Positions 5,772 through 38,687 of a stretch of DNA of 64,000 bases are shown piece after piece. A program made the position numbers and the translations under genes. Under the pieces are notes generated by a model. The model had not been told where the DNA came from. It worked only from the letters and a program-made list of their open reading frames with translations, and made no database searches. Each line of letters begins with the position of its first letter. Position 1 is the stretch's first letter. The DNA lies in NCBI GenBank assembly GCA_903908715.1, contig CAIVSY010000078.1, positions 62,001-126,000 of the forward strand, given 5' to 3'. Source of the stretch: an uncultured bacterium. GTDB taxonomy: Bacteria > Verrucomicrobiota > Kiritimatiellia > CAIKKV01 > CAITUY01.

Positions 5772-7721
5772 ATGAAGCAGCATAAACAGAGCGAAACGGG
5801 GGAAGCTTCGGCCCGGATCCTCATTGTCGAGGATGAGGCAATCGTCGCCAAGGATATTTCACTTTCGCTCCGGAACCTCCGCTATCATGTGGTCGGCATT
5901 GCGGCCACCGGCGAGGAGGCCATCGGCAAGGCCGCCACCTCAAACCCCGATATCATCCTCATGGATATCCGTCTTGCAGGCAGTATGGATGGCATCGAAA
6001 CCGCGCGCGAAATCCACAAGACGCAGAAAATTCCCGTTGTCTTCCTCACCGCACATGCCGATCAGGCCACCCTGAACCGCGCCAAAACCATCGCGCCCTT
6101 CGGCTATCTGGTGAAGCCTTTCGCGGAGCGGGAACTGGAGGCCGCCCTCGAAACCGCCCTCTACCGCGCATCCATGGAGCGCAAGCTGAATGACCAGCGC
6201 CTCTGGTTCGAATCCGTCCTGAACTGCATCGGGGATGCCGTCATCGCCGCCGACGTGAACGGCTTGGTCACCTTCATAAACCCGGCAGGCGAATACCTCA
6301 CCGGATGGAAACGCGACAAGGCCATTGGGCGGGAACTCGCCGAAGTCTTCCATACCGTCGATGAACAGACCCGCCAGCAGGTCGAAGCCCCTGAAATGCG
6401 GGCCCTGCACGGCGACGTTTCCCTCCCCGAGGAAACGGAAGACATGCTCCTCGTCGCACGCGAGGGACAGGAGCGCCCGATCACCAGCACCGTGTCGCCC
6501 ATCAACGATACCAACGGCAACCTCCTGGGAATCGTGGCCGTTTTCCGCGATCTCACCGCTCGCAGGCAGTCGGAGCGCAGGGCCATGAACCGTCAGAAAA
6601 TGGAAGCCCTGGGTAAACTCTCGAGCAATATCGCCCACGACTTCAACAACATCATCAGCCTGGTCGCCGGATATGCCACCTCCATGCAGGAATACCTCCT
6701 GCCGGATTCCCGTGCTTGCGAGGATGTCAAACGCATCCTCACCGCCGTGGAGCATGCAGGCACACTCAGCAAGCGGATCCTGAACGTGGCACGCGCCAGC
6801 GATGCCGAAGGCACTCTCGCCATCCGACCGGTCCTCCTCAGCGACGCCGTCCGCGGCGCCACCAATCTCCTGCGGGGCACCCTGGACACCAAAGGCATCG
6901 CCATCAAGGATAACGTCCCCGACAAAAGTCCCCGGGTCACCGTGGACCGGGACCAGTTCATAGACATTCTCGTGGATATCGTACTCAATTCCGCGGAGGC
7001 CATGCCGAAGGGTGGCACCATCACACTCGACACCCGTTCGTTCAAACTCGGCCGCGAGGACCGCAAGCTGAATCCCCGGGCCAAGCCCGGCCCCTATGCG
7101 GTCCTCCGGATCCGCGATTCAGGCAAGGGCATGTCGCACGAGACCCTTGACCGGATCTTTGAACCTTTCTTTACCACCAAGCCGGACGAAAACCACGTCG
7201 GACTGGGTTTGTCGGTCGTCTATAACGCTATTCAGCGATATGGGGGCTGGATCCGCGTATCCAGCAAACAGGACCGGGGGACCACATTCAACATCTATCT
7301 GCCCGTAGGAGTACCGGAGGAAACCGTGACCACTGCAACCACTACCGCATCCCAGACCATCCTCATCGTGGATGACGATGAAAGCACACGCAGGGAACTC
7401 CATCTGATTCTCAAGCAGGCCGGATTCAAGATCCTGACCGCGGCAGACGGCAAGGAGGCGGTCTCCCTCTATAGTCTTCACGCCTCCAAGATCAACCTGA
7501 CCATACTCGATGTCATCATGCCAGGAATGGACGGACGTCAGGTATTCGAGGAAATTACACGGATTAACCCATCCGCTATTGTCCTTATGCTGAGCGGATT
7601 CTCCCGCGAATACGTTCGCAGCTACCTGCCGGGCGGCCCCTGGCGCTTCATCCAGAAACCGTTCGAAGCGGAACAGATTGTCAGCACCACCCGCCGACTC
7701 CTGGAACAGAAACCCACATGA
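5772..7721 (+). CDS. Cytoplasmic hybrid histidine kinase, REC-PAS-HisKA-HATPase-REC
   Basis: About 649 residues, no membrane segment. The first receiver domain (residues ~14-135) has phosphoacceptor Asp65 in ILMDIRL and a Lys in YLVKPF. A PAS domain (NCIGDAVIAADVNG) spans ~145-270. The HisKA H-box SSNIAHDFNN is near 288. The ATPase shows N-box LNSAEAMPKGG, RDSGKGM, FEPFFTTK and GLGLSVVY. A second receiver (LTILDVIMPGMDG, Asp ~579) ends the protein. Input is therefore probably through phosphotransfer and a soluble PAS ligand. The ORF track begins 52 codons upstream, in sequence without kinase similarity. The stop overlaps the namZ ATG (ATGA), so the kinase is coupled to peptidoglycan-recycling genes. 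Confidence 0.9.
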   Translation: MKQHKQSETGEASARILIVEDEAIVAKDISLSLRNLRYHVVGIAATGEEAIGKAATSNPDIILMDIRLAGSMDGIETAREIHKTQKIPVVFLTAHADQATLNRAKTIAPFGYLVKPFAERELEAALETALYRASMERKLNDQRLWFESVLNCIGDAVIAADVNGLVTFINPAGEYLTGWKRDKAIGRELAEVFHTVDEQTRQQVEAPEMRALHGDVSLPEETEDMLLVAREGQERPITSTVSPINDTNGNLLGIVAVFRDLTARRQSERRAMNRQKMEALGKLSSNIAHDFNNIISLVAGYATSMQEYLLPDSRACEDVKRILTAVEHAGTLSKRILNVARASDAEGTLAIRPVLLSDAVRGATNLLRGTLDTKGIAIKDNVPDKSPRVTVDRDQFIDILVDIVLNSAEAMPKGGTITLDTRSFKLGREDRKLNPRAKPGPYAVLRIRDSGKGMSHETLDRIFEPFFTTKPDENHVGLGLSVVYNAIQRYGGWIRVSSKQDRGTTFNIYLPVGVPEETVTTATTTASQTILIVDDDESTRRELHLILKQAGFKILTAADGKEAVSLYSLHASKINLTILDVIMPGMDGRQVFEEITRINPSAIVLMLSGFSREYVRSYLPGGPWRFIQKPFEAEQIVSTTRRLLEQKPT

Positions 7722-8908
7722 GCCCAACCCATCCGGCCCATGGCCTGCTGACAGGAATGGATGTCTTGCTTACGGAGTTCCCGGACTGGATCCGGAACGC
7801 CCGTATCGGCCTGGTCAGCCACCAGGCTGCCGTGGATCAGTCGGGGCGCACCAGCGCAGAAAGGCTCCACGAATGTCCGGGAGTCAGACTATCGGCCTTG
7901 TTCGGGCCTGAGCATGGGTTTAGCGGTGTCGCACTGGCGGGGGAATCAACCCGGGATGAGCGCCACGGGGACTGGAATATCCCGGTCTACTCGCTGTATG
8001 GAGAATCCCGTTCCCCTTCCCCTGAATCACTGGAGTCCCTCGATCTCCTGGTCGTGGAACTGCAGGACCTCGGGGCCAGACCGTACACCTATGTTTCCAC
8101 CTTGCGCCTGGTCCTGGAGGCCGCGTCCAAGGCACGCAAGCCTGTCATCGTGGCGGATCGCCCAATCCCCCTGGCATCACAGTCGGACGGCCCTTTCCTG
8201 GATCCGCGCTATGCCTCGTTTGTCGCCCTCATCCCCACCCCCATGCAGTACGGCATGACACAGGCGGAAACCGCCCTCTATCTGCGCGAAACCCTGCAAC
8301 TGGACCTGGATCTGCGCGTAGCCCCCATGCGGAATTATCACCGCAACCCGGTGCCGGAAAACCATTGGCCCCGCTGGGTCCCCCCCTCACCCCGCATCCG
8401 CTCCTGGTCCTCAGCCTGCCTGTTTTCCGCGACCGTCTTCGGCGAGGCGCTCCCCGCTATCGACTACGGGTCAGGGTCCGAACTCGCCTTCCAGGTCGTC
8501 GGCGCCCCGTGGCTGAACGCAAACGCCCTTTGCAGGAGCTTCAATGAGGATGCGGCGGAGGGCGTCATCCTGACCCCCTGTCGCTATCTGTCCGCTTCCG
8601 GCGCCTACAGGGGACAGGAACTGGAAGGCGCCCGCCTGACCATCCGGAACCCCCAGTCCTTCCGCCCGGTAACCACTTCCGTCATCCTGCTCGACCATAT
8701 CCACCGCAACGATTCCGAAAACCGCCTGTGGACCGCGCCGGATACAAGACCGGATTGGTTTGACAAGCTCTACGGAACCCATACTGTTCGAAAAGCCCTC
8801 CAGGCCGGGACACCGGGAAGAATTCTCGCTCAATCATGGAACCCTGATCTGGCGGCCTTCGGAATCCTTCGGTCCAGGCACCTGCTGTACTCCGGGGGGA
8901 ACGCATGA
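7718..8908 (+). CDS. namZ: Exo-beta-N-acetylmuramidase NamZ-like (DUF1343)
   Basis: A 396-residue DUF1343 protein. Characterised members (NamZ, GH171) release N-acetylmuramic acid from the non-reducing end of glycan fragments. Family motifs are present: GLVSHQAAV near the start, ALFGPEHGF, GDWNIPVYSLYG, VVELQDLGARPYTYVSTL, VADRPIP and PTPMQYGMT. No signal peptide is evident at the chosen ATG, although some relatives are exported. It overlaps the kinase gene upstream and the MurU/AmgK-like fusion downstream, both by ATGA. This fits release of MurNAc followed by its activation. Confidence 0.88.
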   Translation: MSPTHPAHGLLTGMDVLLTEFPDWIRNARIGLVSHQAAVDQSGRTSAERLHECPGVRLSALFGPEHGFSGVALAGESTRDERHGDWNIPVYSLYGESRSPSPESLESLDLLVVELQDLGARPYTYVSTLRLVLEAASKARKPVIVADRPIPLASQSDGPFLDPRYASFVALIPTPMQYGMTQAETALYLRETLQLDLDLRVAPMRNYHRNPVPENHWPRWVPPSPRIRSWSSACLFSATVFGEALPAIDYGSGSELAFQVVGAPWLNANALCRSFNEDAAEGVILTPCRYLSASGAYRGQELEGARLTIRNPQSFRPVTTSVILLDHIHRNDSENRLWTAPDTRPDWFDKLYGTHTVRKALQAGTPGRILAQSWNPDLAAFGILRSRHLLYSGGNA

Positions 8909-10824
8909 AGCCCCCGGACAAAGCCGTCATCCTGGCTGCCGGTTACGGCGAGCGCCTCCTGCCCCTGACACGGGTGCGCCCCAAGCCGCTGGTGCCGATC
9001 TGGGGCAAACCCGTTCTCCGGCATGCGATGGAAATGCTGCGAAGCTGGGGTGTGCGGGATGTCCTCGTGAACGCCCATTACCATGCAGGCGCCCTTCTGG
9101 AATACCTGCGCAGCCATCCTGTACCCGGCCTCCGGATTCAGATCTCCTTTGAACCGGAAATCCTTGGCACAGGCGGCCCGCTGGTCCGGGCCCGCTGGTT
9201 CACCGGCATGGAACCGTTCTGGATGATGAACGCCGATGTTCTTGCCGATGTCAACCCGGCCGCGTTCCGCCGGGCCTTCACCCGGAAGAACGTCATCGCC
9301 GCCCTTTGGATGCACCCGTCCCGCGGGCCCCGCACCGTGGAGATCACGCGGGATACCATCCGATCGTTCCACAGCCGGAATCCGGGCTCACCGGGCACCT
9401 GCACATTCTGCGGTCTCCAGCTTCTGTCCCCCCGTATCCTGCAGTACCTGCCTCCATCAGGTTTTTCAAGCATCATCCAGGCTTATGAAAAGGCCTTGCA
9501 GTCGGGCGAACGGATCGCCCCGATTGTCACCCCGGACGCGTTCTGGGCCGACATCGGTACTCCCGCATCCTATCTGGAGGCCCATTCAGAAATCCGAAGC
9601 GCGGCCCGACGGGGACAATCCGGCGCCCGCCTGTTCTCCGCGGCATCCTGCCGTTCCACCGGCAAGATCTGGATCGCCACCGAAGGCAACGTGACCCTCT
9701 CGCCACAGGCCCGGCTATGGAATTCGGTCGTGTGGGACCGCGCCGTCATCGGCCCCCGGGCCGATATCCGCAACGCCATCATCACAGGACCGGCAACGGT
9801 AAATGAACCACTGGAATACATGGCACTACCCGCCGCCGGGCTTGGGGATGAAACCTTGGACAGCCTTCTTCGGGAGCTGGGATGGGACCCTGCCGCCACC
9901 GTCCTGAATCCCCTGCCCCCGCGCGGATCCGCGCGCTCCTTCACCCGCCTGCTCCAGGGTCGGCGGCGCGCCATTCTCATACGGTACAGCACCGAAAGGC
10001 CGGAAAACGCCTTCTACGCCGGTCACGCCCGCTTTCTCGCAAGGCACAGCGTACGCGTCCCCGCTGTACTCGCAGACCATCCCGAGGCAAACCTCTGCAT
10101 ACTGGAAGATGCCGGCCATGACAGCATCGAATCGCTCGCTCCGTCCCTCTCCCCGGCCCGCCTTCGCACGCTGTACCTCCGCACACTGGAGGCGGTTTTG
10201 CGCTTGCATGGACCCGCCACCCGCGCCGCCGCCCGAACACGCATGGAACTGTGCCCGGCCTTTGACCGGCGCCTTTTCCTCTGGGAACACAACCTGTTCT
10301 GCGAGGAATTCCTGCAACGCCACTGCAAACTGCCAAGAGTCGCCATCACAAACGCCCGCGCGGAACTCGAAAACCTGCTTCCCACCCTGCTGGCCGCCCC
10401 ACCGGTCCTTCTGCACAGGGACCTGCAATCGAGCAATGTCCTTGTCGTACGGGGGCAGCCGGTGCTGATCGATTTCCAGGGCATGCGGTTCGGTCCGGCC
10501 GCCTATGATCTGGCGTCCCTTTTCCATGACCCGTATGTCAACCTGCCGGAATCCCTGGTGCAGGAACTGCTCGGGATCTACATTCAGAATACCCCGGACG
10601 GGAACCGGCGCAGGGCAGAACTGCCGGTAGCCGCAGCCCAGCGGCTCGCCCAGGCTCTGGGCGCCTATGGCCGCCTCGGGCACAACCCGGCTACGGCAGG
10701 ATTCCTGCGCCATATCCCCGCGGGAGTCCGCCAGTTCCTTGCCGCAGCCCGCAGCACAGGATTGCTGCCAGGGCTATGCCGGACCCTCGAACGCTGGCAA
10801 GATGAACAGGAGCCGCGCCAATGA
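8905..10824 (+). CDS. Fused MurU-like nucleotidyltransferase / AmgK-like sugar kinase
   Basis: 639 residues. The N-terminal half (1-~230) is a sugar-1-phosphate nucleotidyltransferase with AVILAAGYGERLLPLT, RPKPLVPIWGKP and MNADVL. A segment at ~245-300 has left-handed-helix-like hexads. The C-terminal part (~310-639) is an aminoglycoside-phosphotransferase-fold kinase with ILEDAG, the catalytic loop HRDLQSSNV (~503), and IDFQGMRFGPAAYDLASL (~523). These match AmgK, the anomeric MurNAc/GlcNAc kinase, and MurU, which makes UDP-MurNAc from MurNAc-1-phosphate. In pseudomonads the two are separate genes; here one chain could do both steps. Overlap with namZ supports MurNAc as substrate, but other sugar-1-phosphates are possible. 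Confidence 0.8.
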   Translation: MKPPDKAVILAAGYGERLLPLTRVRPKPLVPIWGKPVLRHAMEMLRSWGVRDVLVNAHYHAGALLEYLRSHPVPGLRIQISFEPEILGTGGPLVRARWFTGMEPFWMMNADVLADVNPAAFRRAFTRKNVIAALWMHPSRGPRTVEITRDTIRSFHSRNPGSPGTCTFCGLQLLSPRILQYLPPSGFSSIIQAYEKALQSGERIAPIVTPDAFWADIGTPASYLEAHSEIRSAARRGQSGARLFSAASCRSTGKIWIATEGNVTLSPQARLWNSVVWDRAVIGPRADIRNAIITGPATVNEPLEYMALPAAGLGDETLDSLLRELGWDPAATVLNPLPPRGSARSFTRLLQGRRRAILIRYSTERPENAFYAGHARFLARHSVRVPAVLADHPEANLCILEDAGHDSIESLAPSLSPARLRTLYLRTLEAVLRLHGPATRAAARTRMELCPAFDRRLFLWEHNLFCEEFLQRHCKLPRVAITNARAELENLLPTLLAAPPVLLHRDLQSSNVLVVRGQPVLIDFQGMRFGPAAYDLASLFHDPYVNLPESLVQELLGIYIQNTPDGNRRRAELPVAAAQRLAQALGAYGRLGHNPATAGFLRHIPAGVRQFLAAARSTGLLPGLCRTLERWQDEQEPRQ

Positions 10825-13268: not shown

Positions 13269-16200
13269 TCAGCGTTCGCGCCGCAGGTTGAGCGTCATGG
13301 CTTCCCCGGCTTCCCCGAGCGTCATTGTCAGCGTGTTGAGATCGGGCGAGACGGTCATCTTGACCTCGTTCTCCTTGCCGGGATTCAGCGTGACAAGATG
13401 GCCCCGGATGAACCCCGAAAACCGGTTCGACTCGGTCATCTCGTCGGCCTTGATGGACATGTCTGCCGTGATGTTGTTTCCGGACTGAACGATGACACAT
13501 CGGACCGTCATGCTTTGCCCCCCTTCGCTGAGGGTTTGCGAAAATGTGCCGTTCAGCGAGGGTGCGGAAGCGGATTGTGCCGGCGGGGGCGACTTGGGCT
13601 GCAACGGCGTCGCCGGCGCCCGGGGTGGCACAGGTTTTTCCGGGGTGGGCACGGTCTTGGCGGCTGGGGGTAATGCGGGTGTGGCCGGCTTGGGGGCCGG
13701 ACGCGACGCTGTGTTGACCGGGGCCGCCGGGGTGGGTGCCGTAGAAGCGGCTGCCCCGGATTTGGCGGCTCCCGTGTTGGTCGTTGGCCTGGCCGTGGAC
13801 CAGACGGCATCAGTCACTTGCTTGACGGAGAGCCACGCCTCCAACTTGTCCAGATAGGCACGGCGCTCTGACGTTTCCTTGAGGGCCAGGCTCTGCTTGA
13901 ACTTCGCGGCGGCGCCCTTGTAGTTGGCGGCATCATACAAGGTACGCCCCTCCGCCCAAAGTGCGTCCGCCTTCGCGCCGGACTCGGAACCGGCGATCTT
14001 CTGTTCCAGCAGGGAAATATGCTTTTCAAGGGCGGGATCCGGCCAATAACCAAGACTCTCCCTGTACTTGGCCACTGCCCTGCCCAATTCGTTCTTCTCC
14101 TGGAACGCAGCCCCTTCGGCGCGGAGCTGACGCGCCTTTTCCTTACGGCCCATGCGATCGGTGAGTTCCGCGATGCGTTGCTGGACGACGGAATCAGGCC
14201 GGATGGCGAGCGCCTGGCGGAACTTTTCGACCGCCTCGAACAGCTTGTCCTGCTTCTGGAGAGCCTCCCCTTCGGCGATAAACCGGGCTCGGTCGCTTTC
14301 CCTTTCATTCGCGGCCGCAACGGCACGCTCATACGCGGAAGCCGCGTCCTTGACCGGTGCATACCGCGGATGCATCTGGCGAGCCTTGTCCAGCGCGGCG
14401 GCGGCCGACGCAAGATCAGGCTTCCGCAAGGCGTCGTTGACTTGTGCGACGTACTGCAGGACCTGCTGGCGTTCGGTGGTCCATTTCGCTTGCAGGCTGG
14501 GTGCCTCCGTGTTTTTCGGATCCAGTGCGGCGGCTTCCCCGGCGAGGGAGAGGCCTTCCTCGAGGCGTCCTTCGGCCACAGCCGATTGCGCCTGGGCCAG
14601 CTTGGCGCCGGCCCCGGAAATCATCGGCTTCCCTGGGTCGGCAGCGACGGAGAGCTGTCCTGCGCCCGTGCCGAGTTCGATGCCGCGGTCGTCCTTGATC
14701 CTGACGGCAAGGCTGTAGGTGCCCGGCTGGCTGGCATTGACGCGTGTTTCCCTGCTGGCCGGGCTGTAGACGGAGCAGCCCTCGGGCGAGGCGCTCCATT
14801 CGTAGCGCACGGTGCGCGGGCACTGCGGGTTCACGGTGGCGGCGAAGAAGACTTCCTGGTGCACGACGGTGCCGGACTGCACCTCGACCAGGCCCTTGGC
14901 CTGTTCACTCCACACGCGCGGCTTCGGTCCCGAGTGGCGCGGGCCGGTGACGTTGACCTGGTACGGTCGGGCGGTGAGGGAGGCCTTGGCTTCGCCGAGG
15001 TCGTCGCCATGGTGTTGAAGCCTGGCCATGGCCCTGATGGCGATAGTTCGGGTATCGAGCGAGTAGAAGGTAACCTCGCGCGAGTCCTTGGATTCGCCGA
15101 TCTGTTTGGCGTTCGAGGGCAGTTCCCAGCGGCAATCCAGCTCCGGCAGTTCGGGCGTGACGGTGAGCTTCACGGTTACGTCCTCACCGACCAGCGGGTC
15201 AGCCGGGGTGCATTCCAGGGCAATCTTGGGCGGGACGACTTCGACCTCGACGGGTTCTGACGAGGCGACGGTTTTCATGGTGCCGCCTTCCTTGCGCAGG
15301 ACGTCAACCCATATGCGTGTTTTCTGTGGCCTAAGGAACCGGGCGGTTGTGGCCGCCGCGCCGGCACGGCCGGTGAATTCGACTTCAGGGTGCGGCTGCC
15401 AGGAGAACTCGAGGCCTTCCTGTGGGGCGGCCTTACCACCCTGCTGGACCGTGGCGGTCAGGTTAGCCGTGGTGCCTACGGGCACGGGCTGCCCCGGGAT
15501 GCCGGACACGCTCACCGTGAGCTCGCCAACGGTGAAGGTTGCCGTTGCCTCGCCGATCGCGCGGCCCTTGGCGCCGGTGACCTTGACGGAAACCTTGAAC
15601 GATCCGTTGCCCTTGGCAGTAAATTCCGCGCCGGATTCCGAGGATGTGTCGACGCCGGTCCAGGCGTAGGAAAGGGGATGGTCGTCCAGCAGCGCATTGG
15701 AGACCAGGGCCTTGAGCTTGACGGTTTCGCCGGGGGAGAGCTGGGTGGAGTCGGGCACAAGGTTCAGCGAGACGGTAGAGCCCGTTGCCGGGGTCCAGCC
15801 GCAGGCCGATGGGGAGGGGGCATTTTCGGGTTGGCCGTTGTAACCGTCATTCCATCCCTTGAGCCAGGCATTCACGATGATGGGGTCGTGGGTGCAGACA
15901 GCGGTGGTCGGGGAGGAAGGCGGTGCAGTTTTGATTTCCGGACCTTTGATCATGACCAGAGCTCCGGAGGCATCGTGGCCATACGTAGCGTTGTGGATCC
16001 TTTTCATGCCGTCATTAACCTTCGCAACGTTTCCAAGATGGTAGCCATCCTTGTAGGCGTTTTCGACCCAACGCCTGACAGCCCCTTCGCCGGAGACGAT
16101 GTAGAGCTCCTGCACGGCGCCGAATTCCTTGACGGCTCTGGCCTTCAGTTGCAGGTAGGCGTCCTGCAGTTCCTTGAGGGCTGGCGCGGCGCCATTGTCG

Positions 16201-19200
16201 TAGCCACGGAGGAACGCGAGGCCGAGGACAGGGTTGTGGGCGTGGCGAGGGAGGGTGAAGCGCCAGTCGTAGACGCCGGACATCTTTGCCGTCTTGGCCT
16301 CACCGGCGATCATGCTGCCGTCGGCGTAGGCGGCGGCGATTTCTGCGGCGGAAGCCGTGGGGACCGCGTCCTGCTTGGGTGGCTGAGTGCCGGGCGGTGA
16401 CGTTTTGTCCGTCTTTGGTGGCGTGCTGGTTGGCGGCGTGTCGCCCTGCTTCGTCGAGCCGCCTGTGCCGCCTTCCGGCGGGGGCGGCGGCTGGCGTTCG
16501 TCGCCGATGTCGATCACGTGTGTTGCCCGTGCCAGAATCCGGCGGGAACGTCCTTCCCCAATCACGGCGCGGGCATCGAACTCATAGTGTCCCGGGCGGC
16601 TGGTGTCCATGCGCAACGTTCCCCCGGTTTCGTAGACGACGTCGTTGACCGTCCATTCGATCCAGGCGTCCTTCCTGAGGCGTTCGGCGGCCGGTGCGAG
16701 CGCGCGGATTTCCGCTAGGATTGAGACTTCGGCGTTTACCTTGGCGCTGGCGGGGCCCTTGACGGCGACGGCGAGCAGGGCCGCGGGGTCGCTGACGGTG
16801 ACGGTGTGGCGTGCGGAGGCGGTTTTCGCATCCCCGTTCGCGGGCTGGAATGTGCCGCGCAACTCGACATCGTAGGAGCCGCGGTTCAGCCGGCCAAGAT
16901 CGAGCCGTTGGCCGACGGCGTTGCGTTTGCCGTTGAGGAACCACTCCAGTTTGACCGTTTCGCGTGAGGCGGAGGGTATTCCGACGGCCGTGCCAGACAG
17001 GGCGACGCTGTCGCCCTCGATGTACTGGGACTCGCCGGTAATGTTCACCGCAAAGCCATCGCCAGAGACCTCGAACTCGACGGTCTTCGATGCGACCGGC
17101 TGGGGTTGCCCATTGGCGTCCTCGACCAGGAGTATCAGTTTGACCGACGCGGCACCGGACATGGGGGCCACCACGTCGGCCGAGTAGGCCTGCTGGCTGC
17201 GGACCGTGCAGTTCTTTCCGCTCCAGTCAAGGCGTGTCCCGGTGTTGTAGAAACGCTCGGGAATATCCGCGGTGAACTTCACGGTCGCGCCGGGCCCCGG
17301 TTTCTTCGGCTCCATGCTGACGCTCAGGAGGTCGTCCGGCATGCTCACGCGCACGGTGCGCTGGACGACGCCCTTGACCTTCTCCCTGCCTGAACGCTCG
17401 ACGGTGGCGGAGAGGGTTGCCGGCGGGAGTTTGTTGGCGGCAAAGCGCAGTTTTTCGCCGGCGGCATCGGTCGGCATGAACGTGCCGGCAGGCGTGGCGC
17501 TCCAACGGATGGTAAAGGGGTTGTCCTGGTGTTCCTTGGCCAGGGTTGGATCCGAGAAGCGCAGTTCCACGTCGGCGGCCTCGTCGAGCACCAGCGGGGC
17601 GGGGGAGACCACGATCGTGGACCCCTTGTTGAGGCGTCGGTTGAAATCCGCATTGAGGTTGTAGAGGGCGCGGACCTTTTCAAGGGCGGCCTCGTATTCC
17701 TCGAAATACTTTGAGCCCTCGGGAGGCTGGGCCGAGTCCGATTCATCGAGGGCGGTTCGCCAGGGGAATACGACCGAGGCGAGCAGATCAAACGCCTGGG
17801 CGTCGATGGTATCGGCAGGGTCCGGAGCGGAGCCCTTGATCCTCGTGATATCCCCCGTGATGCGGCTCAAGGCCGAGGCGAATCCGGCGCGGGACTGTTC
17901 GGACTTGCGGGTTTCCTGCTCCATATCGCCGCTCCAGGAGAAGCCAAGAACCCGGGTCCGTGCGAAGCCGGTGCGGGTCCGGATGGTTTCCGGAATCTCC
18001 ACGTTCCTGTCGTAGATGGATTTGTAGGCGGCATAGGCCTTTTCCCAGTATTGTCCGCTGGTCAGCCTCTTTTCCTCCTTTGTATCGGTCGCCCCGAAAA
18101 CCGCGCTGTCGCTGGCATTGGCGAGGGCGGTGGCCTTTTCGCGGACGATGTCCACAAGGTTGACGCCCAGGGGGGAACCGCGCAAGGCTTCCAGGTTCTT
18201 CTGCAACTCCTCCAGCTTTGGCGCCAGGTCGTTCTCGGCGTTCAGGGTGGCGTACTTCTGCTCCGCCATGGCGATGAGCTGGGGAACCATCCACTCCTGC
18301 AGGACAACGTCCTTGCGCTTTTCCACCTGGTCCTTCAGGTTCTGGTAAAGTTTGGCCCAGGGCTTGCCCTTGTCGCTTTCCGCGATGTACTCAAAGCCGC
18401 CCATCCAGATGAGATATCCGCCCAAAAAGTACCTGGACGCCTCCTCCCAGTTGATGGCGTCGAGGTGGGACTGCACGGCCGCGCGCATCTGGGCGAGGGC
18501 CGGATCGTTGGCCAGGTAGTGGGAGTTGAAGACGTTAAAGGCCTTTTCAGAGAGGTTGTTGATCCAGTACTCCTTACCGGGGACCGCATGCTTGACGCGG
18601 ACCGCCTTGGTCTCGAACAACCACTTATAGACCTGGTCCCTGGCGATGGTGTCGCCACCGGGCAATTCCAGGCGCTTGAGGCGGTAGCTGTTTCCCTCCT
18701 TTTCAAAGGCACCGTTATAGGTCAGGACATCGACAAGGCCTTCACTCTCGTTCTGGAGCTGGACGGCGCCGCCAACCGTCCAGGACATGACAAGGACATC
18801 ACCCGCCAGCACAAAGGGCCAGGCCGGGGTGAAGTAGAGCGCCTCCTTGGCGAACATGAGCGCCGTACCTGCGGTGATGCCCTCGCAGCCGGCTTTCTTG
18901 ACGGCCATGCCCATAGGGACGAAATCAATGATGACGAAGGCGGCGCTGCTGAGGTCCTTCATGTCGCCCTTCTGCCATTCGGAATACATGGCGTAGAGGA
19001 CAAACGGTGCGTTGGCGACGGCCTCGATGGCGAATTTTGAGCCGGTTTCGCTGGCCAGTAGTTTCCAGAGGAACGAATCGCCCTTCGTATCGGCGAGCAT
19101 CTTCTGGAGTTGCCTGGCGCTTTCCCCGCCGGTGGTTCCAGCCATGCGTTCGCTGCCGACTTCGGCGAGGAGTTGGCGGGTCTTTGTGCCACCAACTCCG

Positions 19201-20648
19201 GCTTCCTTCATGCCGGCGACGAGGCCCTCGGCGGAACCGGCCCTGACCCATGTGTTGACTCCACGGGCGATGCCGTCCTCCGCCGCTGCGGCGGTGAGCG
19301 TGCCGGCGTCCACAGCGGCCGTATAGAGCACCTTGTAGAGGAGCGAGACGCTGTCCGCCCCGGATCCGCCCAGGGCCTTGAGCATGCCGGGGATGACGTC
19401 CTGGATGATGCGGCCGTGTCCCGACGAGTGCAGGAGGGAGAAGCCGGCGGCCAGTTCGTGGATCATGCGGCGCAGCTCGGGGTGGCGGGCGATATTGACG
19501 GCGCCCTTGCCGGCTTCCCGCTCGGCCTGGCGGACCATTTGCTGAACCTTGCGGCAGGTGCTCAGCATCACGGATTCGAAGGCATCCAGTTGGAGCGTCA
19601 TCAGGTCATGGCGCCGGAGCAGCGCGCGGGCGGCGTTACCGCTCTTGTCCTTGTAGGCGGCCATGAGCTGTTCGCCCATCTCCTGGAAGTAGGAGGACTG
19701 CCGCCCCCCCATACTGGCGGCATCGCCGAAAGAACCGGCCGCCTGCATGGAGGCGTAGATGCGGAGCAGGTATTTCACCTGCTCCCGCTCCGAAAGGTTC
19801 GGATGGAGCATCTGGCGCGTGCAACTGGTGTACATGGTCAGGGGGCCGAACCGCTTGAGATCCGAGGCGATCTGCGCCATGTCCATGATTTCCGCCAGGG
19901 TGCTGCCACCGTTCTTCTGGACGTAGTCAGCCAGGGTGATGGCAACCGGCTTCAGGGCTCCCCCTTCACGCTGCAAAATGATGGCACCGCCCTTCTCGAC
20001 CATCTCCTGCTTGATTTTACCGAAGCCGGCGGCCCCGACAAAGGCGTCGGGATCCTGGATCTGCTTGACCAGCAGGTCGTAACTGGTGGCATCGGGAATC
20101 GGCGACATGGCAAAGCCCTTGCACCGGGCGTTTCTGAGTTTGCGGGCATCCTTCAGTTCATTGAAACGGCGGGCGGCTTCCTCACCGCGGGGACCGAGAA
20201 AGGAGATGTCGTCATCCGAGTTCAGCAAATCATACCGTCCTTCGGAAGGCGCCTGTCCGGACAGGTTCATGTGGCGGTCGCCGGAAGAACCCGTCCGGAT
20301 GACCGCTTCGACGCCATCCCCCATTTCGGAGGCCACCTGGGCGGCCAGTTCCTCGGCCAGCTTCATCTGGCGCCGGTCCACCGATTGAAACACCTTGCGC
20401 ATAAAGGCCTCGCCCTGGCTCCCGCCGCCGCCGATCCGGATCGCCTCCTGCTTGAAGAGGGTACGAATCGCGGGGTCGTTGCGATCCACCATTGCCTGAA
20501 GGGAATCGATGAGATCAGGCGTCAGCCCGGAGGTCTTCCCCTGCTCCAGCAACTGCAGGACGGATGGAGGCAGGTCGGCGGCCTGCAGCAGCACGGGCGA
20601 TAACGCGATGGCGATCGTGAGAAGAACGGAACGGCGCGGGTGTTTCAT
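13269..20648 (-). CDS. Giant secreted multidomain protein (Ig-like and TPR repeats), function unknown
   Basis: 2459 residues from ATG 20648, which begins a good signal peptide (MKHPRRSVLLTIAIALSPVLLQA). The first ~900 residues are mostly helical. They include a GSSGD...SDDDISF pattern at 120-150 reminiscent of nucleotidyltransferase-fold active sites, and a hydrophobic stretch near 560-660. Beta-rich PKD/Ig-like modules fill ~1030-1380. A Pro/Thr-rich linker sits near 1390, more Ig-like modules at ~1615-2000, TPR-like helices at ~2005-2270 (FIAEGEALQKQDKLFEAVEKFRQAL), a Pro/Ala linker, and a final ~95-residue beta domain. I cannot assign a function. It follows the lipoprotein gene by 108 bp on the same strand. 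Confidence 0.8.
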   Translation of the reverse strand: MKHPRRSVLLTIAIALSPVLLQAADLPPSVLQLLEQGKTSGLTPDLIDSLQAMVDRNDPAIRTLFKQEAIRIGGGGSQGEAFMRKVFQSVDRRQMKLAEELAAQVASEMGDGVEAVIRTGSSGDRHMNLSGQAPSEGRYDLLNSDDDISFLGPRGEEAARRFNELKDARKLRNARCKGFAMSPIPDATSYDLLVKQIQDPDAFVGAAGFGKIKQEMVEKGGAIILQREGGALKPVAITLADYVQKNGGSTLAEIMDMAQIASDLKRFGPLTMYTSCTRQMLHPNLSEREQVKYLLRIYASMQAAGSFGDAASMGGRQSSYFQEMGEQLMAAYKDKSGNAARALLRRHDLMTLQLDAFESVMLSTCRKVQQMVRQAEREAGKGAVNIARHPELRRMIHELAAGFSLLHSSGHGRIIQDVIPGMLKALGGSGADSVSLLYKVLYTAAVDAGTLTAAAAEDGIARGVNTWVRAGSAEGLVAGMKEAGVGGTKTRQLLAEVGSERMAGTTGGESARQLQKMLADTKGDSFLWKLLASETGSKFAIEAVANAPFVLYAMYSEWQKGDMKDLSSAAFVIIDFVPMGMAVKKAGCEGITAGTALMFAKEALYFTPAWPFVLAGDVLVMSWTVGGAVQLQNESEGLVDVLTYNGAFEKEGNSYRLKRLELPGGDTIARDQVYKWLFETKAVRVKHAVPGKEYWINNLSEKAFNVFNSHYLANDPALAQMRAAVQSHLDAINWEEASRYFLGGYLIWMGGFEYIAESDKGKPWAKLYQNLKDQVEKRKDVVLQEWMVPQLIAMAEQKYATLNAENDLAPKLEELQKNLEALRGSPLGVNLVDIVREKATALANASDSAVFGATDTKEEKRLTSGQYWEKAYAAYKSIYDRNVEIPETIRTRTGFARTRVLGFSWSGDMEQETRKSEQSRAGFASALSRITGDITRIKGSAPDPADTIDAQAFDLLASVVFPWRTALDESDSAQPPEGSKYFEEYEAALEKVRALYNLNADFNRRLNKGSTIVVSPAPLVLDEAADVELRFSDPTLAKEHQDNPFTIRWSATPAGTFMPTDAAGEKLRFAANKLPPATLSATVERSGREKVKGVVQRTVRVSMPDDLLSVSMEPKKPGPGATVKFTADIPERFYNTGTRLDWSGKNCTVRSQQAYSADVVAPMSGAASVKLILLVEDANGQPQPVASKTVEFEVSGDGFAVNITGESQYIEGDSVALSGTAVGIPSASRETVKLEWFLNGKRNAVGQRLDLGRLNRGSYDVELRGTFQPANGDAKTASARHTVTVSDPAALLAVAVKGPASAKVNAEVSILAEIRALAPAAERLRKDAWIEWTVNDVVYETGGTLRMDTSRPGHYEFDARAVIGEGRSRRILARATHVIDIGDERQPPPPPEGGTGGSTKQGDTPPTSTPPKTDKTSPPGTQPPKQDAVPTASAAEIAAAYADGSMIAGEAKTAKMSGVYDWRFTLPRHAHNPVLGLAFLRGYDNGAAPALKELQDAYLQLKARAVKEFGAVQELYIVSGEGAVRRWVENAYKDGYHLGNVAKVNDGMKRIHNATYGHDASGALVMIKGPEIKTAPPSSPTTAVCTHDPIIVNAWLKGWNDGYNGQPENAPSPSACGWTPATGSTVSLNLVPDSTQLSPGETVKLKALVSNALLDDHPLSYAWTGVDTSSESGAEFTAKGNGSFKVSVKVTGAKGRAIGEATATFTVGELTVSVSGIPGQPVPVGTTANLTATVQQGGKAAPQEGLEFSWQPHPEVEFTGRAGAAATTARFLRPQKTRIWVDVLRKEGGTMKTVASSEPVEVEVVPPKIALECTPADPLVGEDVTVKLTVTPELPELDCRWELPSNAKQIGESKDSREVTFYSLDTRTIAIRAMARLQHHGDDLGEAKASLTARPYQVNVTGPRHSGPKPRVWSEQAKGLVEVQSGTVVHQEVFFAATVNPQCPRTVRYEWSASPEGCSVYSPASRETRVNASQPGTYSLAVRIKDDRGIELGTGAGQLSVAADPGKPMISGAGAKLAQAQSAVAEGRLEEGLSLAGEAAALDPKNTEAPSLQAKWTTERQQVLQYVAQVNDALRKPDLASAAAALDKARQMHPRYAPVKDAASAYERAVAAANERESDRARFIAEGEALQKQDKLFEAVEKFRQALAIRPDSVVQQRIAELTDRMGRKEKARQLRAEGAAFQEKNELGRAVAKYRESLGYWPDPALEKHISLLEQKIAGSESGAKADALWAEGRTLYDAANYKGAAAKFKQSLALKETSERRAYLDKLEAWLSVKQVTDAVWSTARPTTNTGAAKSGAAASTAPTPAAPVNTASRPAPKPATPALPPAAKTVPTPEKPVPPRAPATPLQPKSPPPAQSASAPSLNGTFSQTLSEGGQSMTVRCVIVQSGNNITADMSIKADEMTESNRFSGFIRGHLVTLNPGKENEVKMTVSPDLNTLTMTLGEAGEAMTLNLRRER

Positions 20649-20756
20649 TGTTGACTCACTCTGTTGTGGATGGAAAAACCCACCGCATAGGCGGCGCATG
20701 CAAGCCTCGACAGAGAGGGTCACCCCGTGATCGCGAAGGCATCCCCCTTCTGTTGA

Positions 20757-21527
20757 CTACAGAACCGGAGGCGGCGGAAGCGCGGAGTCCGACTTCCGGG
20801 GAACGGCCGGTGCTGGGGTGTCTGACTCCTTTTGCCGGGTGGCTGGAACAGAAGCGGACCACGCTTCAGGCTTCACACGGCGCAGGTTCGCGGCAATGGC
20901 CTCAACGCAGGACTTAAAGGTAATCTCCTTCGCCGTGGCAATCCCGGAATCCATGCCCCAGGCGCGCTCCCCGGCGCCGGCCGGAACAGGGATCCAGCCG
21001 GTGGGCAGGATGGAGAGCCAACTGACATCGGTCCGGCTGAAGGTCACCGGCCGGGCCAGGGCTTGGTTGGCGGCGGGGATCGAGGAGCGGGTTTCCACCG
21101 AATACGTTTCCTTGTCGGTGCTCCGAAGGGGGATAAGGGTCAGGGTGAGGCACGAGACACAGGCGGCACCGTCATCCACACCGGCTTCATTGTTGATTCC
21201 AGTGATGGTGACCTGAAGCGGAACTGCATCGGGAGCCTTGGAGAAGGTCTTGGGGTAGAGTTTCATGGCGACATTCATCATGTCATCGCTCAAGGAGGCC
21301 CGCGTAATGGGATAACTGGCGAAGGGCGAAAGCGCATCCTGTGCCATGTTGGTCAGAACCACATACCTCACATCGGTCAGGTTGAACGTGACGGGGGCAG
21401 GAATGGGCCGCCCCGTGGGGGCCAGGGAGGCATCAATGCGAAAGGAGGCGCACCCCGTGCTCATGGCGGCCAGGATAACGACGGCGATGGCTGAAAAAAT
21501 CCTGTTACATAGCAATGCATGGCTCAT
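20757..21527 (-). CDS. Hypothetical lipoprotein
   Basis: About 256 residues with a lipoprotein signal peptide (IFSAIAVVILAAMSTGC, acylated Cys). The mature part is not recognised. It contains a double-Cys (CVSCLTLTLIPL), a WLSILPTGWIPVP segment, and a Pro-rich C-terminus ending PPPPVL. The start at 21527 is set by a strong AAGGAGG 6 nt upstream, not by the longer ORF. It precedes the giant secreted-protein gene on the same strand, so the two may act together in the cell envelope. That link is inferred from position only. Confidence 0.75.
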   Translation of the reverse strand: MSHALLCNRIFSAIAVVILAAMSTGCASFRIDASLAPTGRPIPAPVTFNLTDVRYVVLTNMAQDALSPFASYPITRASLSDDMMNVAMKLYPKTFSKAPDAVPLQVTITGINNEAGVDDGAACVSCLTLTLIPLRSTDKETYSVETRSSIPAANQALARPVTFSRTDVSWLSILPTGWIPVPAGAGERAWGMDSGIATAKEITFKSCVEAIAANLRRVKPEAWSASVPATRQKESDTPAPAVPRKSDSALPPPPVL

Positions 21528-33893: not shown

Positions 33894-36800
33894 TCAAGGA
33901 GCCAAGCGAACCTTCAAGCGGAGGAATTCCCTATCGCCGCCCGGGGTATTGGTATAAACAATCGCATCCCCTGTCCCCGGAATATTGGTAAAGGCGGTGC
34001 TATGCCAATCGGCTCCCAAGTCATCAACAGCCTCAATGTCGTACAGCCTTCCTTCGCGCGTCGACCACGAGACTGTCAGGCCATTCGGCGGATTCAGCAG
34101 AACCGTGCTGACCCCGAACCGGCCCGACAAGGGAGTTGGCACCGCGGGATCCGTGCCGGCAACATATTCATTGCCATCAGACACCCCGTCGCCATCGCTA
34201 TCGGACTGCCAGGGAGCGCACCCGCACTCCCCCTCAAGAGAGTCGGGCAACCCGTCTCGATCCGAATCCATGGCGGTGTCAAAAATCCTTGCCGAGCCGC
34301 AGCCGTTGTCATCCGGGGCACCCACCATTGCCGTTTGTCGGTATAGATTCACCGCATGCCCGAAATGATCCGCCGCGGCCGCATCCGGGGCAACGAGTTT
34401 CGCCTGCTGCATCCAATTGGAGCCACTGCGCACGAAGACGTAGGCAGCACCGGCATCCTCACCGCCCATATTGTGTCCACGCGCCCCAATCACAACCTGC
34501 CCCTCGGATGCCGCTAGTGAATATCCGAAATTGTCTCCTGCGTTTCCATCCTCAGGGCAAACATAGGCCTGACAGGACCAGTTGGTCCCTTCCCCTACGT
34601 AGGCATAAGCGGCACCCGCCCCTGCTCCATAATCGGTGTTCCGATAAGGAGCCCCACACCAAACCGTCCTGCCCTTGACTGCGACGGACCAGCCAAAAAA
34701 CGGATTCCCGGATGGCGCCAATGGTCCGGGGAAACATGCCTTATGGACCCAGCTAGTCCCCGCTGCAGTATATACATGCACGTTGCCTATCGTTTGTACT
34801 CCGTTGGTGTTATGGTACGGCGCACCGACCACAATCGTACCGCCGTCCAGAGCCACCGCACTTCCGAACCGGTCTCCCGCCTGGGGATCCGGAGCGACAA
34901 GGCGCGCCTCGAGCGCCCAGTTCGTACCCAATCGGCGATAGACATACGCAGCACCGGCAAAAGATCCGACACCATCGGCATACTCCATGCAGGCACCAAC
35001 CACCGTTAAATTTGTGCTTAACGCCACAGCACACCCGAATTGGTCGTTCGTCACCCCACCGGGGGCCTGGAACCGGGCCTGAAGGTTCCAGTTTGTTCCT
35101 GACCGCGTATAAACGTAGGCTGCGCCAAGGTCACTGAGGGACTCCAGATCGATCTTTGGACATCCCACAATCGCAGTATCTTGAAACAACGCCACTGAAG
35201 ATCCGAACCAATCATAGGCAGAAGCATCGGGAGGCATGAGAGTCGCCTCGGGCACCCAACTGGCACCAACTCGGGCAAAGACCTCGACCGATCCGGCATA
35301 GTCCCCCGCAGGCGTATCATCTTGCGGCACCCCAACAATTGCCCGGTCGTTGTATATGGCCACAGCCCTGCCAAATTGGTCATTATATTCCCCTCCGGCA
35401 GGCTGCAGGCAAACGGCGGGCGCATTGGAACTGAATTGCACCAGGAGCGTAACCTCGCCGGTCGCCACCCCACCATTCCCGTCTGAAATGGCATAGGTGA
35501 AATGGTCGAGGCCGTGGAACTCTTGAGCCGACTCATAGGCAAGATTGGTCCAGCCGGGCTGAATGACGACAGACCCGTATACCGGGTCCGTAACTCCTGT
35601 CAGCTGCAGGGGATCGTTTTCGGAGTCAGCATCATTGGACAGGACCCGCAAAACAACCACCCCGTTGGTCAGCACAAAATAGTCAGAGGCCACCGTTGGC
35701 GCATCATTGCAGGCCGTAACCGCAACCTCCACCCGGCCGGTATCAGTTCCGCCCTGCCCATCACGGATGACATACGAAAACGAGTCTGCGCCATAAAAGT
35801 TGTCGGCAGGAGTGTAAAGCAGATTTGTGTTGCCCGCAGACACCTGAACCGCTCCATGTGCCGGAGAGGTCACGGAAAAGACGGTGATTGGGTCACCATC
35901 CACGTCCACGTCGTTGACCACAGCATGGATCAGGATGGGAGTATCCTCCATGGTTTCCACACTGTCATCCACGGCCTGGGGCGGATCATTGGCCTTGATC
36001 ACGACCACCGCAACCGTCGCGGTATCACTGGCGCCATAGGGGTCCGCGCTGACATAGGTAAATGTATCCGTGCCGTAGTATTCAGCTGTTGGCTCATAGA
36101 GCAGGTTTGTGGATCCCGGCTGAATGGTGACAGTGCCGTGGGCGGGAGTTGTTGCACTGCCAACCTGTAGGGCATCGCCATCCGGATCCGCATCATTGGC
36201 AAGCACAGGGATGAGTACCGGCGTGTTTTCGGCCGTGGATGCGTCATCGTTCGCCGCAACGGGCGGAGCATTCGTGCGTCCGGAAAAGAAATAAGTTGCA
36301 CCGCTACAGTAGCCAAAAGGGCTGGCACCGTTGGCGCCCACCAGCACAGTATCGGCATAAACCGCCGCCGAGCAGCCAAATGAATCAAAGTTTGTCCCCG
36401 CAATGGCGTACAGCGTCGTCTCACGGACCCAGTTGGTTCCCAGCCGGGAAAAAACATCCGCCTTCCCCGTTTGAGCACAAGCGGGACTTCCGGCAAATTT
36501 CGCCCCGACAATCGCCCGATTCCCATGCAAGGCAACGGAAGATCCAAACCGATCATTGCCCGTGTAGGGCAAGGCCGTCAGCTTCGCCTGTTGTGCCCAG
36601 TTTGTTCCCGTACGTGTGAAAACATACGCCGCCCCGGCGTAACTCCCCTTGTTCTGCGCACCAATAATAGCCAGATCACCCGAGAGGGAAACCGACTCGC
36701 CAAAATAATCCGTTGCCGCCGGATCAGCCGCCGTTAGCTTTGCCTGCTGTACCCAGTTGGTCCCACTGCGCACAAACACATAAGCCGATCCGCCATCCGT

Positions 36801-37523
36801 TGCCCCTGTGAGGTCATCCATGCATGCGCCAACAAGGATGGTATCCCCGTCAATCGATACAGCGCGTCCAAAAGCATCCAGGTTCTGTGTATCACTGCCA
36901 CGCAGTTTGACACCCCGCACCCAGTTTGTTCCGCTTTGCATGAAAACATAAGCCGCTCCCAGGTTGCCTTCCGCCCCGACCACTAACGTGGTCTGATACA
37001 AACCGACGGAAAAACCGAAATGATCATAGGCGGTTGCAGTCCACGGAGTAACTCTCGCCTGCTGCACCCACCCCGCTCCGATCTTGGCGAAAACATAAAC
37101 CGTTCCCACGTCCTGCGTCGTGCCATGGTTGTCCATATAGGCACCCGCTGCCAATATATCCCCGGCAAGAGCCACTGAATAACCAAAATAATCTTCATTG
37201 GTCGTGTCACCGCCGCACAATATGGCAGTCTGCGACCAATTAGTCCCTGCCCCCTCAAGAACAAAGACCGCACCGCCATAACTCACCGGGATACTGTGCT
37301 GGTATGCGCCGACCACCGCACGGTTTGAACTCAGCGCTACCGAAGTTCCGAAGTAGGAGGAATTCGTGATCCCAATTCCGGTAACCCGCGCCTGCGGCCA
37401 GTCTGCCAGAACCGTAACCGGGAGATGAGCCTGCTGTTCAGCCGACGCACGCCAAACCAGGAAGGGCAGCACACATAGCCAGCAAAAGAGCCGACATCTG
37501 TTTAGCCGAAAGAAGACACTCAT
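33894..37523 (-). CDS. Large exported FG-GAP / tandem cadherin-like repeat protein
   Basis: 1209 residues from ATG 37523, which begins a signal peptide (LFCWLCVLPFLVWRASA). Residues ~40-410 hold about seven FG-GAP-like repeats (FG.SVAL.GD...VGA...GAAYVF..GTNW). Three ~90-residue cadherin-like/Tandem-95 domains (ANDDASTAENTP, PAHGTV, YYGTDTFTYV) fill ~419-697. About six more FG-GAP repeats follow to ~1078. Then come a TSP3-like Ca-binding stretch (DSDRDGLPDSLE, DSDGDGVSDGNEY) and a C-terminal beta domain. The FG-GAP blocks could form propellers. It is likely a surface or released adhesin-like protein. The ORF track's 161 extra N-terminal residues overlap rfbB and are rejected. Confidence 0.85.
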   Translation of the reverse strand: MSVFFRLNRCRLFCWLCVLPFLVWRASAEQQAHLPVTVLADWPQARVTGIGITNSSYFGTSVALSSNRAVVGAYQHSIPVSYGGAVFVLEGAGTNWSQTAILCGGDTTNEDYFGYSVALAGDILAAGAYMDNHGTTQDVGTVYVFAKIGAGWVQQARVTPWTATAYDHFGFSVGLYQTTLVVGAEGNLGAAYVFMQSGTNWVRGVKLRGSDTQNLDAFGRAVSIDGDTILVGACMDDLTGATDGGSAYVFVRSGTNWVQQAKLTAADPAATDYFGESVSLSGDLAIIGAQNKGSYAGAAYVFTRTGTNWAQQAKLTALPYTGNDRFGSSVALHGNRAIVGAKFAGSPACAQTGKADVFSRLGTNWVRETTLYAIAGTNFDSFGCSAAVYADTVLVGANGASPFGYCSGATYFFSGRTNAPPVAANDDASTAENTPVLIPVLANDADPDGDALQVGSATTPAHGTVTIQPGSTNLLYEPTAEYYGTDTFTYVSADPYGASDTATVAVVVIKANDPPQAVDDSVETMEDTPILIHAVVNDVDVDGDPITVFSVTSPAHGAVQVSAGNTNLLYTPADNFYGADSFSYVIRDGQGGTDTGRVEVAVTACNDAPTVASDYFVLTNGVVVLRVLSNDADSENDPLQLTGVTDPVYGSVVIQPGWTNLAYESAQEFHGLDHFTYAISDGNGGVATGEVTLLVQFSSNAPAVCLQPAGGEYNDQFGRAVAIYNDRAIVGVPQDDTPAGDYAGSVEVFARVGASWVPEATLMPPDASAYDWFGSSVALFQDTAIVGCPKIDLESLSDLGAAYVYTRSGTNWNLQARFQAPGGVTNDQFGCAVALSTNLTVVGACMEYADGVGSFAGAAYVYRRLGTNWALEARLVAPDPQAGDRFGSAVALDGGTIVVGAPYHNTNGVQTIGNVHVYTAAGTSWVHKACFPGPLAPSGNPFFGWSVAVKGRTVWCGAPYRNTDYGAGAGAAYAYVGEGTNWSCQAYVCPEDGNAGDNFGYSLAASEGQVVIGARGHNMGGEDAGAAYVFVRSGSNWMQQAKLVAPDAAAADHFGHAVNLYRQTAMVGAPDDNGCGSARIFDTAMDSDRDGLPDSLEGECGCAPWQSDSDGDGVSDGNEYVAGTDPAVPTPLSGRFGVSTVLLNPPNGLTVSWSTREGRLYDIEAVDDLGADWHSTAFTNIPGTGDAIVYTNTPGGDREFLRLKVRLAP

Positions 37524-37658
37524 GGTCCGAAGTTTAGTAATGAATCGTCCGTGTCTCAACAACAATAGTTGCAGGATCCGGCAGGCTGAACCCAGCCATT
37601 CCGCTCGACACCTGCGCCACGTTGGGCTATACATCCAGACATCTATGGAGGACCCAGC

Positions 37659-38687
37659 ATGAAACTCCTCGTAACCGGGGGCGCGGGATTCATCGGCAGT
37701 AATTTCGCGCGATACATCCTTGCCAACCATCCGGACGATTCTGTCGTAAACCTGGATGCGCTGACCTACGCCGGCAACCTCGAGAATCTGGCGGATGTCC
37801 AGGACAATCCCCGTTACACATTTATTCATGGAGACATCACATCCCACCGCGACATTTCCAAGGCCTTCCGGGAACACCCCATTGACGTAATCGTCAACTT
37901 CGCAGCCGAAAGCCATGTTGACCGCAGCCTGCACATGGGCCCCCGAGCCTTCATCCAGACCAATATCCTTGGCACCCAGCTGCTTCTTGATGCGGCCCGA
38001 AAACATAAGATCCAGCGATTTCTCCAGGTTTCAACCGATGAGGTCTACGGCAGCCTGGGACCCGCCGGAGCCTTTACAGAGGAAACCCCTCTGCAACCGA
38101 ACAACCCTTATGCGGCCACCAAGGCCGGCGCCGATTGCATGGTCCGCGCAGCAACTCATTCCCACGGCTTGGATTGCGTCATCACACGCTGCTCGAACAA
38201 CTTCGGACCCTATCAGTTCCCGGAGAAACTTATCCCACTCATGATTTCCACGGCCCTCGAGGACAAGCCGCTCCCCGTGTACGGGGATGGCCTCCATGTG
38301 CGCGACTGGATCTACGTTGCGGATCATTGTGCCGGAATTGATGCGGCCCTGAGGAAAGGCAAGTCCGGCGAGGTATATAATCTGGGCGGCAACTACGATG
38401 TCCCGAACATCCAGATAGTGAAAGGCATCCTGAAAATCCTGTCCAAACCGGAAAGCCTGATCACCTTCGTCAAGGATCGCCCTGGCCATGACCGGCGTTA
38501 CGCGATGAACAGTTCAAAGGCCCAACACGAACTCGGATGGAAACCCGCCCACCATTTCGAAGACGCCCTGAAAACGACGGTTGAGTGGTATGTAGGCCAC
38601 CCTGCGTGGTGGCAACGGATACGCAGCGGCGAATATCGCGAAGCGTATGAGAAACTTTACGGGTGGCGCAATGAGCAATGCCGTTAG
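37659..38687 (+). CDS. rfbB: dTDP-glucose 4,6-dehydratase
   Basis: Extended short-chain dehydrogenase of 342 residues. NAD-binding GGAGFIGSNF, the RmlB signature STDEVYGSL, catalytic Tyr/Lys in NPYAATKAGAD, plus NNFGPYQFPEKLIP and VRDWIYV. It makes dTDP-4-keto-6-deoxyglucose, precursor of rhamnose and other deoxysugars for surface glycans. The other rml genes are not nearby. It overlaps the downstream nudix gene. Confidence 0.93.
   Translation: MKLLVTGGAGFIGSNFARYILANHPDDSVVNLDALTYAGNLENLADVQDNPRYTFIHGDITSHRDISKAFREHPIDVIVNFAAESHVDRSLHMGPRAFIQTNILGTQLLLDAARKHKIQRFLQVSTDEVYGSLGPAGAFTEETPLQPNNPYAATKAGADCMVRAATHSHGLDCVITRCSNNFGPYQFPEKLIPLMISTALEDKPLPVYGDGLHVRDWIYVADHCAGIDAALRKGKSGEVYNLGGNYDVPNIQIVKGILKILSKPESLITFVKDRPGHDRRYAMNSSKAQHELGWKPAHHFEDALKTTVEWYVGHPAWWQRIRSGEYREAYEKLYGWRNEQCR

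Follow-up and report, generated by a model that had tools for sequence, protein, structure and literature searches.

The window, which is the whole stretch of 64,000 nucleotides analysed, comes from a freshwater-type PVC bacterium and carries on its minus strand a gene for a giant exported protein (Table 1). The reading frame has no stop codon from a GTG at 20723 to the stop at 13269, and the ATG at 20648 is the first codon of a Sec-type signal peptide (MKHPRRSVLLTIAIALSPVLLQA, with the cleavage point directly before AD), giving a protein of 2,459 amino acids. Frame, start codon and signal peptide thus agree with the 2459-residue exported chain described in the initial annotation. Signal-like N-termini are found in all three sequences, namely the window protein (W) and its two homologues (A and B). 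A weak GAGTGAG box precedes the ATG, and a terminator-like hairpin (20696-20681), which is a consensus match only, lies between the giant gene and the lipoprotein gene next to it. The GC content of the locus is ordinary for the window, and no tandem DNA repeats were found there. The giant ORF is real and not an artefact, because a MAG from a separate assembly shows the same architecture.

The neighbours of the gene are an NAD synthase, a lipoprotein and a TPP enzyme. The lipoprotein matches no Pfam or NCBIfam family; homologues of it, at 24-57% identity, are present in 14 other genomes out of a class sample of 193. It was considered as a partner and rejected, as its homologues occur in genomes and loci that do not contain the giant protein; it is probably outside the giant-protein system.

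Table 1. Features of the giant gene and of its upstream neighbour, in window coordinates.
Feature	Residues	Position	Strand	Basis
Complete CDS, 2459 aa + stop		13269..20648	-	Open frame and translation; two homologues
Signal peptide	1-23	20580..20648	-	n/h/c regions; hydropathy peak 1.96; signal-like starts in homologues
Head, mostly helical, without known family	25-1005	17634..20576	-	54-59% identity to homologues
Motif 1, VIRTGSSGDRHMN	116-128	20265..20303	-	VIRTGSSG invariant in 3/3 sequences
Motif 2, SDDDISFLGP	144-153	20190..20219	-	10 invariant residues running
Motif 3, NARCKGFA	173-180	20109..20132	-	8 invariant residues running
Moderately hydrophobic, well-conserved segment	541-640	18729..19028	-	49/100 invariant; hydropathy peaks 1.3-1.6
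First beta-sandwich/Ig-like block, Pro/Thr-rich linker at end	1006-1400	16449..17633	-	Sub-threshold Pfam Glyco_hydro2_C5 and Big_1
Three RGYD/GYNDG-type repeats	1437-1610	15819..16340	-	Sequence and homologues
PKD/Ig-like block	1628-1990	14679..15767	-	PF00801 E=1.5e-10 on whole protein, 8.6e-13 on segment
TPR-like helical repeats	2001-2230	13959..14648	-	PF07719 3.6e-06 on segment
Ala/Pro-rich linker	2231-2345	13614..13958	-	Sequence; unalignable in A
Small C-terminal beta domain	2346-2459	13272..13613	-	SLxGxF...Q.G..T...SPD.N..T pattern conserved in homologues
Upstream lipoprotein gene, 256 aa (neighbour)		20757..21527	-	Lipobox LAAMSTGC

The tail of the protein consists of ordinary, fast-evolving, stalk-like domains of the Ig/PKD and TPR types. 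The Ig-like blocks that had been proposed there are supported by the PKD family (PF00801), which is the sole Pfam domain clearly above its curated cut-off (41.4 bits against 23.5); the first block, residues 1006-1400, is 32-33% identical to the homologues. The TPRs also hold, since TPR_2 (PF07719) is borderline on the segment of W (27.1 against a cut-off of 27.0, and below it on the whole protein) and clearly passes in B (37.0). The array has extra copies in B and is nearly absent from A. The small beta domain that had been placed at the C-terminal end has its pattern conserved in the homologues and corresponds to no Pfam family. The RGYD/GYNDG repeats recall motifs of the ribosome modulation factor, and a weak Pfam RMF match (E 0.025) is present in paralogue B.

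The genome of W has no second copy of the giant protein. Among 346 genomes of the class, one other carries homologues and belongs to a different family of the same order; the 344 others have none. No further homologue was detected in a 388-genome sample of the phylum, in plasmids (tblastn with the head), in phages (tblastn with residues 60-420) or in viral contigs. Weak extra profile matches in the class and phylum samples were taken as chance, the one in genome G443 being on reading a shadow frame. The two homologues, A (2,091 aa, counted from the aligned start) and B (2,472 aa), stand in tandem at L006 2372-16359 in genome G016. A scan of the genome collection returned the same tandem locus in the MAG of a PVC group bacterium, isolate MiH-14oct19-188, a name that is read here as indicating a lake. 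PHP-like and HemW-like genes lie downstream of the tandem and an FAD-linked oxidase-like gene lies upstream, these names being read from the sequence and not from a family scan. As two families have the protein and nearer relatives lack it, the distribution implies transfer or repeated loss.

Identity of the head to W is 58-59% for A and 54-56% for B overall; by region, most of the head falls between 54 and 73%, and residues 111-240 reach 65-73%. Four-fold sites over the head differ by ~0.5-0.6 between W and A/B, which is near saturation (GC3 0.76-0.80), and together with the identity of 54-73% this shows that purifying selection on the head is strong. Evolution is faster in the tail, whose blocks are mostly 25-40% identical between W and A/B. 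The tails of A and B are 46-66% identical to each other, and the hydrophobic part of the head of A shares 77% identity with W and 61% with B. Judging from this mosaic similarity, A and B may go back to an old duplication and have had their tails homogenised or exchanged later. The synonymous distances between A and B, 0.30-0.38 in the head and 0.43-0.52 in the tail, do not favour a recent conversion of the tails.

The head represents a new family, strongly conserved and very rarely found, which may or may not be an enzyme. No head family emerged when the whole protein was scanned against Pfam, NCBIfam and PADLOC, or when Pfam was run on pieces of the head and on all three homologous sequences, which bears out the earlier view that no known family fits the protein as a whole. 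Searches of the PDB with phmmer and with a profile found only TPR-like, helical-repeat (alphaRep/HEAT) or chance matches. Conservation peaks in residues 111-240, where 77 of 130 positions are invariant in the three-sequence alignment. The GSSGD...SDDDISF motif that had been pointed out is present at this peak, and it is nearly invariant in both homologues. The six longest invariant runs are VIRTGSSG, SDDDISFLGP (joint longest of the whole protein), NARCKGFA, KSEQSRAGFA, ALEKVRALY and KYLLRIYA, the last three lying elsewhere in the head. Among the [DE]x[DE]h patterns of the head, DDDI alone is invariant, and the polar or charged invariants of the motif stretch are R118, S121, R125, H126, N128, D145-147 and K177. 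The hydrophobic middle that had also been described exists as a segment at about residues 541-640, which is not clearly transmembrane because its hydropathy peaks are so low (Table 1).

The reading preferred here, with a probability of roughly 0.4, is that of a lineage-restricted family of giant exported proteins, in which a stalk displays a head with a putative metal- or phosphate-binding site. The tail would be an elongated stalk or an arm for binding a partner, located on the cell surface or within the periplasm, and residues of GSSG, SDDDISFLGP and NARCKGFA may converge on an alpha/beta core to form this site, whose conserved function would be catalysis or ligand binding. In a low-confidence model of residues 66-336 (271 residues; pLDDT 60.6, pTM 0.54), strands 115-119 and 147-151 carry or abut the GSSG and SDDDISFLGP motifs. 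A model of residues 25-1010 by AlphaFold had a pLDDT of 42 and was left out of the fold search. The model of residues 66-336 and its Foldseek matches allowed no confident assignment of a known fold. As there are three sequences only, two of them tandem paralogues, their invariance counts for little as a sign of a catalytic site.

A doubtful but serious alternative is that the head is a divergent Pol-beta-type nucleotidyltransferase (NTase) fold with an insertion of ~10-16 residues between the motifs, and hence an exported nucleotidyl- or adenylyltransferase. GS and SDxDhxh are invariant, and the G[GS] turn after a strand that marks NTases is found in the invariant VIRTGSSG, the strand being 115-119 in the low-confidence model. 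The modelled order (long helix, strand 115-119, GS loop, strand 147-151 with the last acid of DDD, helix, short strand, later hairpin) hints at an NTase-compatible arrangement. Residue 191 (D/E/D in the three sequences) could be the third carboxylate, which NTases carry on a later strand, although it is predicted helical in the same model. In canonical NTases the spacing from GS to the acid is about 9-13 residues. It is 23-25 in 3/3 sequences of the head, DDDI lying ~24 residues past the GS, so that neither the canonical nor a near-canonical arrangement is observed in the alignment; column shuffles produced a loose GS/DDDI-type pair in 2.7% of trials and a near-canonical spacing in 0.8%. Foldseek with the low-confidence model found nothing significant in the PDB, all structural matches having E above 0.1. 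Among the matches listed, the MNT antitoxin 8xeo_B had the highest probability (0.28) and the highest TMt (0.49), with E 1.2, and in the viral library the highest TMq among those listed (0.26, probability 0.06) belonged to an NTase-domain protein of phage RP12. Alignment of the head by hhalign to sets of 27 NTP_transf_2 (PF01909) and 24 LicD (PF04991) sequences, built from relatives, gave probabilities below 1%, no better than the controls, and both motifs were never aligned together. This negative carries little weight, because the true NTase profiles NTP_transf_2 and LicD, used as positive control, align with each other at just 2%. A Pfam search of both whole host genomes gave no NTP_transf_2 match, and the head lacks a Pfam match to LicD as well as the I-P-W and the fifth acid of IPWDDDxDI. 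As ATP is normally lacking outside the cytoplasm, the exported location also speaks against an NTase. The NTase-like N-terminus considered in the initial annotation is thus neither established nor disproved: the invariant motifs and the element order are compatible with it, the spacing and, with little weight, the lack of profile matches speak against it, and the structure prediction that had been suggested as a check gave a low-confidence model of compatible element order and no significant Foldseek match. That the head on its PKD/TPR stalk represents a new NTase-fold branch working outside the cytoplasm is unlikely.

Also doubtful is the proposal that the entire head has no enzymatic activity and serves as a helical scaffold or adhesin, in which the acidic motif is a Ca-binding or structural turn. 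The head is mostly helical, it matches no enzyme family, the tail is stalk-like and the invariant runs are scattered along all 980 residues; three of them, KSEQSRAGFA, ALEKVRALY and KYLLRIYA, fall outside the region of the motifs, so that the head as a whole may have a structural scaffolding role. The motif stretch is, however, more conserved than the remaining head and contains the polar and charged invariants, which a scaffold alone explains less well.

It is improbable that the protein is toxin-like and directed against other cells, with an N-terminal active domain, a hydrophobic middle for membrane insertion and a C-terminal binding arm. The order of a catalytic-like part, a hydrophobic part and a repeat tail would suit such a protein, as would a conserved head with a diverging tail. 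Polymorphic toxins carry their toxin domain at the C-terminus (PMC3482391), and no known toxin domain was matched there. The toxin reading is disfavoured because there is no toxin-family or PADLOC match, because the neighbourhoods of W and A/B differ and keep no immunity-like partner beside the gene, and because the hydrophobic segment is too weak for clear insertion helices. A hydrophobic-DDD-hydrophobic-G-P pattern is compatible with a DXD strand, but it is very improbable that SDDDISFLGP is the DXD of a GT-A type glycosyltransferase and not an NTase motif, as no GT family matched and no GT-A enzyme was among the PDB fold matches listed.

Several known systems resemble parts of this protein. 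MNT/NTP_transf_2 proteins (PF01909, e.g., the MNT antitoxin 8xeo) share a GS turn followed by a strand with SDxDh, and their topology is weakly similar to the predicted one; the head differs from them in its spacing of 23-25, in the absence of profile similarity, in being exported and in being embedded in 2459 aa. LicD-type transferases (PF04991) have G[ST], RH and DDDh residues in equal order, whereas the head has ~10-12 extra residues between the motif residues, Ser in place of the fifth acid and no profile match. SidM is an exported AMPylator of NTase fold with the motif G-X11-D-X-D (PMC12409994). SidM/DrrA, compared here by function only, is likewise exported and has an N-terminal domain with G...D-x-D, but it has a dedicated delivery into host cells and canonical spacing, and no homology to the giant protein was found. 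Polymorphic toxins also include RelA/SpoT-like NTases (PMC3482391). Giant modular exported proteins with PKD/Ig and TPR domains have a signal peptide, repeated beta-sandwiches, repeats and a variable tail as well; the conserved 980-residue N-terminal head, absent from every library searched, sets W apart from them.

The head module of ~980 residues thus has no match in the family libraries and databases searched, yet it is 54-59% identical across two PVC families, and it occurs in only 2 of several hundred relatives. Should its conserved acidic site be catalytic, the protein would be an exported enzyme whose chemistry is unknown; an NTase would raise the question of how such an enzyme finds nucleotides outside the cytoplasm, and a scaffold would add one more to the orphan giant surface proteins. 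The architecture is interesting mainly as an orphan giant family.

Other features of the window include a protein of 1,370 aa (33894-38006, minus strand) with 14 FG-GAP stretches, three Big_9/cadherin-type segments and a TSP3 repeat. On the plus strand, 8905-10824 encodes a sugar-type NTP_transferase fused to an APH-type phosphotransferase, which adjoins a NamZ-type exo-N-acetylmuramidase (7718-8908). Beyond 30 kb (30000-64000) the GC content drops from ~0.63 to ~0.56.
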